This document shows, one piece after another, positions 5,418-52,766 of a stretch of 64,000 nucleotides of DNA. Position 1 is the first letter of the stretch. Every line of letters begins with the position of its first letter. Origin of the DNA: Falsirhodobacter xinxiangensis (GTDB taxonomy: Bacteria; Pseudomonadota; Alphaproteobacteria; Rhodobacterales; Rhodobacteraceae); assembly GCF_004959935.1 (NCBI RefSeq), contig NZ_SMYN01000002.1, forward strand, positions 124,001 through 188,000, given 5' to 3'. Made by a program: the position numbers and the translations under genes. Under the pieces are notes generated by a model. That model did no database searches. It saw nothing but the letters and a program-made list of their open reading frames with translations, and had not been told where the DNA came from.

Positions 5418-7877
5418 CTACCGGGGCGTCAGATGCGTGATCCCCACCGCCGCCGCCCGCGCCAGATCGGCATCCAGCGACATCGGGATATACTCGCCCC
5501 GCCGCCACAACCCGCCCAGATCGTCATAGAACCGCGACAGCGGATGCCCCGACTGCCCGGTCGAGGTGATGAAGACCGAACTGTCCGGGTCCGCGAAGTC
5601 ATAGACGCCGCGATAGCCCGCGCCATGCACGTTCTGGAACGGGTCCTGCCCGTAGCCCTTGGTCACCCCGCGAAGAAGCGTATCGTCCCCGCCCGAGGTC
5701 GATTGCCGGATGTTGACCAGATAACGCAGCAGCGGAACGTTCCCCAGCACCGGATGGTCATGCGTCGCCTGATGCGCGTCGCCCCAACGCCAGCTTTCGA
5801 TGTTCTTGCCATAGCGGTCCGACAGCCAGACCAGCGCATCGTCCAGCGCCATTCGCGCGATGTCGGTGCAGGTCTCGACCGGAGAAGACTGGATGATGTC
5901 GCACCACACGCCCGCACCGCCTTCGTTGCGGAACACGCGGGTGAGGAAGACGTTGTCGATATGGCCGAACTCGTCCGCCATCGGGCCAAGCTCGTCGCGG
6001 ATCAGGCGGTCCTGCAACGCCGCCAGCCATGCCTGCGAGATCAGCGGCTCGGGCATGTGCTCGTTCATCTCTCCGTTCCACTGGGCCAGCATTTCCAGCG
6101 CACGCTGGCGCTGGCGTTCCGGGGTGCCTTCGGGGGCCGCCTCACCGGTGAACCAGAGATCGGCGCCGATCAGCGGCAAGACCTGCCGCGCACCGATCGA
6201 CACCGTGTCCAGCTGCGCCTCGATGAAGCTCTCGCGGGTATGCACCTCGCGTGCGCGCATCAGGGCCAGCCAACGCTGGATGCGCTGCGTGTCGCCCCAT
6301 TCGAAGCTGACATGGTTCGGGAAGGGCCGATCCACCGTCTTGTTGTTGGTATTACCGAGAATGCCCGTATCGGGATTCACGACACGCGGATTGTCCTCAT
6401 AAGGGCGGACGCCGTCCCAACGATTGCGCGGGTCCCAGCCCGGCGTCGGAAGACGGCCCTGCGCCTGCATCTGCGGGTCACGATTCGGAATGGCGCCAAC
6501 CGTCTGCATCGCGATCCCGGCCCGGTCCGCCAGCATCACGTTCTGCGCCGGGGCTACGACCAGCCGTCCGGCCTCGATCGCGTCGTCCACCGTCTTCGAC
6601 TGCATCAACCGCATCGCAGCCGTCATCGAGGTATCGCCCTCGGCCAGCGCGGTCCAGGACAGCGACATGACATGCCCGCGCGGCGTGACGGTGCCGACAT
6701 CGTAATGCGATCCTGCCAGAACCGGCCCGTTTTCCGTCCACCGCAGGGTGAGCGTGACCGGAGCACTGCCCGCCACGTTGATGATCGAGCGGCGCGTTTC
6801 GAACTTCTTCCAGCCATCGGGGGTGCGGTATTCCTCGGGGTTGTCCGGGTTCACCTCCTCGATATGCAGATCCTGATCATCGACATAGGCGGTGGTCAGG
6901 CCCCAGCCCAGCGCGTCGGACCGGCCCGTCATGATGACCGGGGTTCCCGGAATGGTCGCGCCGATCACGCCGCCCGATTGCAGTTGCAAACGCGCCAGAT
7001 ACCAGATCGACGGCGCCGTGAAGCTCAGATGCGGATCGTTGGCCAGCAGCGTGCCGCCCGCAGCCGAACGCGCGGGCGCTGCGGCCCATGCGTTGGATGC
7101 GCCCGCGAAAGCGCGGCGATGGAATGGCGAAAGCGGGTCCTCGGCCATTCGGATCGGTTCGTAGTCCGGCGTCACACCCGGCGCGAGTTCGGAATAGCGC
7201 GGCAGCGCCGTCACCGCCTGTCCCGGATCGTCGGGCAGGATGTCGTGCAGCCGGTCATCCGGCAGGAGCAGCGACATCCGCGCCCGCAGCACCTCGGATT
7301 CCAGATGCGAGGACAGTTGCAGCGCCATCAGCTTCAGGATCGCGATGCTGTCGGCGGGCTGCCACGCCGCGATCTCGTTCGAAAAGAAGAAGAATTCAGG
7401 CGCGCCACGCCCCCGCGCCTCGGCATTCACCTGATCGATCCAGTCGTTCACCCCTCGGGCATAGGCATCCAGCGCGCGCCGCGTCGGCTCGTCCTGCGCG
7501 GGCACCGCCCGGCTGGCCAGACCATAAAGGTCATAGCGGCGGATCATCGCGTCGGTTTGAAGGGTCCGTTCGCCAAAAATCTCGGACAGGCGTCCTTGGG
7601 CGGTCCGGCGCAGCAGCGTCATCTGCCACAACCGATCCTGCGCATGGGCAAAGCCAAGGGCGCGGAACACATCCTCGTCGCTGCCGCCGAAGATATGCGG
7701 CACGTTGGCGTTGTTGCGCACGATCTCGACCGGGGCGGACAGGCCGGGCAGCGCGAAATCCTCGGAATAGTCGGGCAGGGATCGCGACAGGAAGAAATAG
7801 GCGACCGCCAGCGCGGCAAGCCCCAGCAGGATCAACCCTGAAAGGATGCGCAAGAGCCAACGGAAAACGGTGAACAT
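5418..7877 (-). CDS. Penicillin acylase family (Ntn-hydrolase) protein
   Basis: Member of the penicillin amidase S45 family: amide hydrolases acting on acylated amino compounds such as acyl-homoserine lactones or beta-lactams. The substrate cannot be told from sequence. From the chosen ATG at 7877 it is 819 residues. It opens with a strong signal/anchor helix (residues 6-30) and should be periplasmic after autoprocessing. The alpha chain is followed by GASNAWA, where Ser261 is the expected autocatalytic N-terminal nucleophile of the beta chain. NDPHL follows shortly after, and NTNNK and GQSG-type segments are further down. A longer frame begins at 7940, but it would put 21 polar residues before the signal sequence. 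The downstream neighbour hflX is convergent. Confidence 0.88.
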   Translation of the reverse strand: MFTVFRWLLRILSGLILLGLAALAVAYFFLSRSLPDYSEDFALPGLSAPVEIVRNNANVPHIFGGSDEDVFRALGFAHAQDRLWQMTLLRRTAQGRLSEIFGERTLQTDAMIRRYDLYGLASRAVPAQDEPTRRALDAYARGVNDWIDQVNAEARGRGAPEFFFFSNEIAAWQPADSIAILKLMALQLSSHLESEVLRARMSLLLPDDRLHDILPDDPGQAVTALPRYSELAPGVTPDYEPIRMAEDPLSPFHRRAFAGASNAWAAAPARSAAGGTLLANDPHLSFTAPSIWYLARLQLQSGGVIGATIPGTPVIMTGRSDALGWGLTTAYVDDQDLHIEEVNPDNPEEYRTPDGWKKFETRRSIINVAGSAPVTLTLRWTENGPVLAGSHYDVGTVTPRGHVMSLSWTALAEGDTSMTAAMRLMQSKTVDDAIEAGRLVVAPAQNVMLADRAGIAMQTVGAIPNRDPQMQAQGRLPTPGWDPRNRWDGVRPYEDNPRVVNPDTGILGNTNNKTVDRPFPNHVSFEWGDTQRIQRWLALMRAREVHTRESFIEAQLDTVSIGARQVLPLIGADLWFTGEAAPEGTPERQRQRALEMLAQWNGEMNEHMPEPLISQAWLAALQDRLIRDELGPMADEFGHIDNVFLTRVFRNEGGAGVWCDIIQSSPVETCTDIARMALDDALVWLSDRYGKNIESWRWGDAHQATHDHPVLGNVPLLRYLVNIRQSTSGGDDTLLRGVTKGYGQDPFQNVHGAGYRGVYDFADPDSSVFITSTGQSGHPLSRFYDDLGGLWRRGEYIPMSLDADLARAAAVGITHLTPR

Positions 7878-48283: not shown

Positions 48284-52503
<4,220 letters not shown>

Positions 52504-52505
52504 AG

Positions 52506-52549
52506 GTTCCTAATAAGTTCTTTACTTGTTCTCCGAATCATGAGAACAA
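52506..52549 (+). promoter_or_regulatory. Candidate tandem LexA (SOS) operator
   Basis: Three GTTC half-sites at 52506-52509, 52517-52520 and 52528-52531 are each separated by seven bases, making two overlapping GTTC-N7-GTTC boxes. GTTC-N7-GTTC is the established LexA-binding direct repeat of alphaproteobacteria. The third half-site is also part of a perfect inverted repeat, TTGTTCTC (52526-52533) and GAGAACAA (52542-52549), eight bases apart. A possible -35 TTTACT (52521-52526) lies within the boxes and a possible -10 AACAAT (52545-52550) follows at 18 bases. A bound repressor would block the promoter. Confidence 0.7.
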
Positions 52550-52575
52550 TCAGGCAACAGAAACGGAGATGCCTG

Positions 52576-52695
52576 ATGCTGGATCAGATCAAGATGACCC
52601 TTTCGAATTCCCGCCGCGCCTTTGTCGAAGACGTTCTGGGCACCGTCGCGGTGTTCACGCTCCTGTTCGGCGCGCTCCATCTGCCATTGCTTTGA
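52576..52695 (+). CDS. Small 39-residue single-helix membrane protein, probably SOS-controlled
   Basis: A 39-codon frame. ATG 52576 is seven bases after ACGGAG. The peptide begins MLDQIKMTLSNSRRAFVEDV, a polar, positively charged N-terminal part. It ends with a hydrophobic stretch (LGTVAVFTLLFGALHLPLL), one predicted transmembrane helix with the N-terminus inside. I do not recognise the family with certainty; short proteins with a similar helix-LHLP ending occur in Rhodobacterales. A LexA-like operator lies upstream and an intrinsic terminator 43 bases downstream, which together define a transcript of about 210 nt. By analogy only, Caulobacter's SOS-induced small membrane proteins inhibit cell division. 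Confidence 0.7.
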   Translation: MLDQIKMTLSNSRRAFVEDVLGTVAVFTLLFGALHLPLL

Positions 52696-52737
52696 GCTTC
52701 CTGCCCGCGTGTTCCCCCTGCTGTGACACGCCTGACT

Positions 52738-52766
52738 GCCGCTGCCCGCAAGGGTGGCGGCTTTTT
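52738..52766 (+). terminator. Strong intrinsic terminator of the small SOS-type gene
   Basis: A ten-base-pair stem (GCCGCTGCCC / GGGTGGCGGC, two G-T pairs) with a GCAA tetraloop is followed by TTTTT. It reads rightward, away from the leftward Fe-S gene whose stop it touches. Confidence 0.85.

Follow-up and report, generated by a model that had tools for sequence, protein, structure and literature searches.

A micropeptide gene kept after recG in Rhodobacteraceae, with a candidate LexA-type operator

The locus

The window is the whole stretch of DNA analysed here, 64,000 nucleotides from Falsirhodobacter xinxiangensis, and coordinates count from its first letter. The protein encoded at 50395..52503, which we take to be RecG, finds matches of 77-100 % in relatives of the same genus. 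A short unit follows it, and its features are these:

50395..52503, + strand: recG (RecG helicase), open reading frame, the upstream neighbour that anchors the locus; putative start
52506..52520, + strand: candidate LexA-type box A, GTTCCTAATAAGTTC, GTTC-N7-GTTC
52517..52531, + strand: overlapping second candidate box, GTTCTTTACTTGTTC, supplying the third half-site (52528-52531)
52521..52526, + strand: putative -35 element TTTACT, inferred from the sigma-70 consensus
52526..52549, no strand: 8-base perfect inverted repeat, TTGTTCTC-N8-GAGAACAA, arms 52526-52533 and 52542-52549
52544..52558, - strand: candidate LexA-type box B, inverted, GAACAATCAGGCAAC (GAAC-N7-CAAC), over the putative -10/start region
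52545-52550: perhaps the -10 element, AACAAT
52551..52575, + strand: hairpin in the leader, CAGGCA...TGCCTG, whose loop carries the ribosome-binding site; particular to the window genus
52565-52568: ribosome-binding site GGAG, inside the loop of the leader hairpin
52576..52695, + strand: micropeptide gene, 39 aa, MLDQIKMTLSNSRRAFVEDVLGTVAVFTLLFGALHLPLL, one predicted transmembrane helix
52738..52766, + strand: intrinsic terminator, stem 52738-52761, then TTTTT

An initial annotation of this DNA had described three GTTC motifs at 11-base steps, followed by a 39-codon frame with a good ribosome-binding site, one transmembrane helix and a terminator, the whole forming a self-contained unit after recG. 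This description holds: the half-sites begin at 52506, 52517 and 52528, in exact 11-base steps, the ribosome-binding site reads GGAG, the peptide has one hydrophobic segment, and the gene stands alone with its own terminator (stem and TTTTT). Terminator-type sites are expected 0.8 times by chance in the 701-base region scanned; 3' of the gene, at this position, a hairpin followed by a run of T can be recognised by eye in all six genus relatives, though L035 has an imperfect one. A simple promoter scan of the locus returned no promoter.

The same annotation placed the third motif in the 8-base inverted repeat, and here we add a correction. The repeat is better read as the product of convergent half-sites than as a separate element: its GAAC is half of a second box, GAAC-N7-CAAC (52544-52558), which had been missed. 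In the alignment of the genus some relatives have an imperfect form of the repeat. An alternative start at 52540 would give 51 aa; it was set aside because it would fall in the interval from box A to box B, ahead of the putative -10. This start is in frame in the window and in G003, and G004 and G005 carry in-frame ATGs upstream as well, at different positions.

How much the GTTC motifs say by themselves depends on their number. Dinucleotide shuffles predict 0.02 triple patterns for the window, which has one, whereas single GTTC-N7-GTTC pairs (4 found, 1.7 expected) are unremarkable alone. The genome as a whole holds 78 such pairs per strand; the reversed pattern occurs 50 and 39 times. Single pairs are thus so common that they are weak evidence, and it is the context that decides. 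Another exact triple GTTC-N7 array lies in the same genome (L303, 1649-1674; G000:C1:1649-1674) with no clear gene behind it; by eye, it is flanked by a helix-turn-helix-like frame upstream and an ATPase-like frame downstream.

Conservation of the gene after recG

The frame stands directly after recG in all six other genomes of the genus. Five of them have the exact triple array, and the sixth (G002, L037) has an altered first half-site. The initial annotation had let its reading depend on whether the frame and the 11-base spacing were kept in relatives, and both are conserved in close relatives. As frame, spacing and place are all conserved, a chance origin is untenable.

For a broader view we surveyed 79 genomes of the family, every fifth of the family draw, chosen without reference to the peptide and anchored on recG; the sequence 3' of recG was searched with an iterated profile and a start finder that favours ATG. 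Seventy-eight of the 79 genomes have a recG, at 79 places since G137 has two, and the frame follows recG in 74 of these 78, one of the cases being weak (L143, E 0.004). Seen by locus, the profile matches 74 of 79 recG loci and none in the reversed DNA of the same loci. The gap between recG and the frame runs from 47 to 292 nt, with a median of 107 (74 loci). Three loci (L112, L117 and L143) were left out of the 78-row alignment for odd length or weak match, yet are counted in the 74. The gene and its operator are also found away from recG, clearly in G137 and weakly in G062 (E 0.0099), and no peptide gene was found in G172, in G372, or in G177, the last searched with the seven-row alignment only. 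One further genome, G162 (L117 / L340; 80 % complete, no lexA found), lacks the operator, and its peptide frame extends to 75 codons, which looks like decay.

At the level of the order, matches at E <= 0.01 come from 238 of 244 genomes and 97 of 100 genera, and all the matches listed are in Rhodobacteraceae. The draw from the class gave 12 matching genomes among 385, five of which are members of the family, and no convincing peptide match was found outside the family among these 385 genomes. The seven matches outside it are attributed to chance: they have E values of 0.001-0.006, and six lie in frames of at least 200 codons. The seventh (G910, L173) is in a 45-codon frame where the operator motif is absent, and was also treated as chance. 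An earlier search of the family with a seven-row alignment at E <= 1 had matched 358 of 394 genomes, a figure that mixes chance matches with missed members and so cannot be used as a rate.

Evidence for a coding gene

The peptides of the survey are 38-43 aa long in 70 of 74 loci, and a Shine-Dalgarno match of at least 4 bases precedes the start in 64 of 74. Across 35 independent pairs, selected on DNA identity alone, the differences at codon positions 1, 2 and 3 number 213, 114 and 525 (852 in total). All 51 independent pairs in a second comparison have a dN/dS ratio below 1, with a median of 0.14, in a sample picked for at least 60 % protein identity, which lowers the ratio, and from which saturated synonymous pairs were left out. 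Judged by this pattern of substitution, the frame 52576-52695 is a real coding gene. The initial annotation had proposed a real small membrane-protein gene, and a frame that is conserved after recG and differs mainly at codon position 3 bears it out.

These data also weigh on the idea that the operator drives a small regulatory RNA and that the frame is incidental. The short transcript with its terminator would suit such an RNA, as would the leader hairpin of the window genus: the leader folds in all seven genus members (z -2.0 to -5.6, mononucleotide shuffles), with stems that differ and nevertheless pair. A family-wide leader hairpin was considered and rejected, the mean z over 185 leaders being about 0, with 16 leaders below -2, six of them from the window genus. 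The near-constant length of the frame, the excess at codon position 3 (525/852) and a dN/dS below 1 in every pair are all against an incidental frame, and a search with Rfam found no family and nothing else in the window, so that we regard this explanation as barely credible.

Properties of the peptide

A larger set of 192 sequences, 184 of them unique, was assembled in which 111 of the 114 named operator loci with a peptide (see below) were entered; its members were chosen for an ATG giving 33-48 codons, and their spread of length is therefore partly set by this rule. Among the 184 unique sequences the strongest positions are D19 (98 %), G22 (99 %), L26 (90 %), L34 (98 %) and P37 (90 %), position 26 being V in the peptide of the window. 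A hydrophobic segment is present in 183 of 184, none has a charged residue (K, R, D or E) among the 17 that follow D19, and the mean net charge before the hydrophobic segment is +1.2. In most members the short C-terminal tail reads HLP... An AlphaFold model has helices at 2-11 and 13-35 (mean pLDDT 83, pTM 0.44). The conserved residues lie partly on one face of the helix, a weak signal with a permutation p of 0.02-0.10 depending on the range. There are good grounds in these sequences for the predicted membrane topology, in which the positively charged N-terminal part would be inside and the short C-terminal tail outside.

The peptide is new to the collections that we searched. Among 78 members, no covering family was found in Pfam (one weak match, TMEM238, E 0.0098), in NCBIfam (two weak matches, E 0.045 and 0.05) or in PHROGs (one weak match, E 0.0089), and there was no match in PADLOC. 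TMEM238 of Pfam matched 4 of 7 genus members at E <= 1. The SulA family (PF03846) matched none of the 78 members, and no SulA turned up in the 41 genomes searched, of which 25 are Rhodobacteraceae. A search of the open-licence literature, supplementary tables lying outside it, found no description of the gene, and open-licence literature likewise yielded no SOS division inhibitor for Rhodobacteraceae. The Dinoroseobacter LexA paper lists the lexA, recA, dprA, pde2, flagellar, gene-transfer-agent and pilus promoters (PMC6473078); recG is absent from the main text of that paper, the D. shibae site list being in a supplement outside the search.

Architecture of the operator

A GTTC-N7-GTTC box lies at most 160 nt from the start in 72 of 74 survey loci and is absent in L117 and L147. 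In 70 of the 74 it abuts a -35-like TT[TG].. element, which reads TTTAC in 52, TTGAC in 9, TTGC in 8 and TTGATC in 1, these 70 loci having been chosen for TT[TG][ACG] at the -35 place. The following counts refer to the same 70. An inverted GAAC stands 21-24 nt after box A in 67, at exactly 23 in 56. By locus, box B has the form GAAC-N7-[CG]AAC in 61 (62 by occurrence), with a spacing of N8 in one and N10 in 8. Its second half is CAAC in 54 and GAAC in 8; being mostly CAAC and not GAAC, box B would be an imperfect LexA box. An extra GTTC at N6 spacing lies upstream of box A in 50.

The triple array, which the initial annotation saw as the form of the operator, is in this light mostly a matter of the genus. 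What stays fixed throughout the family is a single GTTC-N7-GTTC box against the -35-like element, together with the inverted box B. The triple array is found in 6 of 7 members of the window genus, and family-wide it is rare, a third GTTC at N7 on either side occurring in 4 of 70 loci and the overlapping second box in 2 of 70. The window genus keeps boxes A and B and adds a GTTC beside the -35, which gives the triple array. Alignment of the upstream regions of the genus leaves two invariant cores, AAGTTCTTTACnnGTTC and TGAGAACAATnnGGCAAC.

The association of operator and peptide can be approached from the other side. When the named genome collection was scanned with nothing but the 20-base core operator, at least 117 loci came up. 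Among the 117 listed, 114 carry the peptide directly downstream, and two stop short at the locus end. The remaining one is L202, from a metagenome-assembled genome labelled Muribaculaceae, which has the exact core at 5986-6005 and neither recG nor the peptide. In 112 of the loci a recG of the same orientation was found no more than 400 nt upstream.

Is the regulator LexA?

The motif GTTCN7GTTC is that of LexA in Caulobacter, where sidA is an early SOS gene (PMC12700426). The genome of the window has one lexA, itself beside a triple half-site, and at 7 of 13 box sites examined in this genome an SOS-type gene follows (lexA, uvrA, ssb, a UvrD helicase, an IMS/ImuB-like gene, a UmuD-like S24 gene and SRAP). 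At the other 6 of the 13 we found no recognised SOS gene; the 13 are A+T-rich sites picked by eye from the first ~100 places listed, and recA is not among them. The proposal of a LexA-type operator in the initial annotation thus gains from the upstream box at 72 of 74 survey loci and from the same box at SOS-type genes of the own genome, both of which are matters of sequence.

The lexA gene (PF01726) was found in 78 of 80 genomes, and in a larger set it went undetected in 13 of 395, a count that was checked again by scoring every candidate. Six of the 13 lexA-negative genomes lack the peptide, versus 2 of 77 lexA-positive ones (Fisher p 7e-5; without the weak G062, 3 of 77 lexA-positive genomes lack it, p 2e-4), a comparison whose rows come from different genome samples and in which kin were counted apart (G035 and G934 are of one genus, as are G065 and G946). 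Three of the six genomes without lexA and peptide are also without a recG match, so that the joint loss may be part of a wider decay. G172, G200 and G934 have kept recG, with neither operator nor peptide after it. G372 has lexA and recG, and the peptide is absent.

There are cases of the opposite kind. Six fragmented lexA-negative assemblies (G075, G923, G163, G165, G947 and G306) each have the peptide with an intact operator, and here lexA is perhaps simply unassembled. G004, a near-complete genome of the window genus in 3 contigs, has operator and peptide intact (L034, L330, L341), and no LexA DNA-binding domain was found in it over the family cut-off. One might argue from this genome, and from the frequency of single GTTC-N7-GTTC pairs, that the box serves a regulator other than LexA or that the motif is due to chance. 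The same box before lexA, uvrA, ssb and other SOS-type genes of the own genome speaks against this, as does a geometry that is nearly fixed throughout the family, and we think it very improbable. We strongly infer, from these sequence patterns, LexA binding and DNA-damage induction of the micropeptide gene.

What the peptide may do

Our leading interpretation, in which we have moderate confidence, is that the gene encodes a LexA-repressed, DNA-damage-induced single-pass membrane peptide that would act on division in the manner of SidA of Caulobacter. In undamaged cells, LexA dimers would occupy both boxes, A next to the -35 and the inverted B across the -10/+1, and keep the promoter tightly shut. 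RecA filaments would trigger the self-cleavage of LexA, the sigma-70-like promoter would open, and a short transcript closed by its own terminator would give the peptide. Once inserted in the membrane in the orientation predicted above, the peptide would most likely bind a transmembrane helix of a late division protein of the FtsW/FtsI/FtsN type and hold septation until repair is done.

This model leans on what is known in Caulobacter. Loss of lexA there leads to filamentation by constant sidA expression, and deleting sidA relieves it (PMC12700426). SidA and DidA, both small transmembrane proteins, act on FtsW/FtsI/FtsN (PMC4211646). The micropeptide shares with SidA of Caulobacter crescentus its alphaproteobacterial origin, a GTTCN7GTTC motif, its small transmembrane nature and, probably, LexA control. 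Inhibition of division is known for SidA only. The initial annotation had claimed no homology to SidA, and we claim none either; there is no convincing match outside the family among the 385 genomes of the class draw. DidA of C. crescentus is alike as a small transmembrane protein and is a division inhibitor of the DNA-damage response; it differs in being SOS-independent, induced by DriD (PMC4211646). Division arrest by the peptide is plausible by analogy.

YneA of Bacillus and SosA of Staphylococcus are SOS-induced division inhibitors, from Gram-positive bacteria and longer than the 39-aa micropeptide, whose own SOS induction is predicted. YneA acts on FtsW (PMC13396833).

The peptide could, under the same SOS regulation, act on the membrane itself, as TisB and DinQ of E. 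coli do, and lower the proton motive force and slow metabolism. TisB and DinQ are also SOS-linked small membrane peptides, both with antisense RNA partners; TisB is amphipathic, with charges through its membrane segment. Small size and a strongly hydrophobic helix would fit such an action, and so would the several boxes of the micropeptide operator, since tightly repressed toxic genes have several operator boxes. Unlike the amphipathic TisB, the micropeptide has an uncharged helix, with no charge in the 17 residues after D19 in 184 unique sequences, and the conservation of its D, G and P suggests that it makes a specific contact; we consider an action of this kind unlikely. DinQ is described as a toxic single transmembrane peptide of the SOS set, with an antisense RNA partner (PMC3567139).

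A small membrane protein under LexA control is not necessarily an inhibitor of division. Many single-pass micropeptides of bacteria adjust the activity of larger membrane proteins, which lends some weight to the thought that the peptide, again under SOS regulation, assists some other membrane protein and takes no direct part in division. Such a protein might be a transporter, a membrane protease or an envelope stress factor, or might serve a step in the release of gene transfer agents. Predicted LexA sites at c-di-GMP, flagellar, pilus and gene-transfer-agent genes of Dinoroseobacter would agree with it (PMC6473078). No neighbouring gene suggests a partner, the unit being alone after recG, and this proposal seems to us on the unlikely side, if worth keeping in mind. 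We prefer, as first choice and by analogy, a SidA-like brake over both the membrane-depolarising and the membrane-partner readings, because of the LexA/sidA model in Caulobacter and because SulA was not found in the 41 genomes.

Conclusions

A broader proposal, which we put forward tentatively and with somewhat more doubt than confidence, is that the micropeptides represent the missing SOS division checkpoint of Rhodobacteraceae. They would be a family unrelated to SidA, SulA, YneA and SosA, which arose in the Rhodobacteraceae, became fixed beside recG with a promoter between two convergent LexA boxes, and tends to be lost with LexA. Under this checkpoint proposal, the peptide would be lost where LexA has been lost because its unrestrained expression would stop division.

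The present case also illustrates that a gene of 40 codons found throughout a family can be missing from the models of Pfam, NCBIfam, PHROGs and PADLOC alike. Roseobacters and the purple bacteria of the genus Rhodobacter both belong to the Rhodobacteraceae, and since the gene is so conserved and has a clear candidate DNA-damage switch, a pause of division during repair may now be directly testable in this family.
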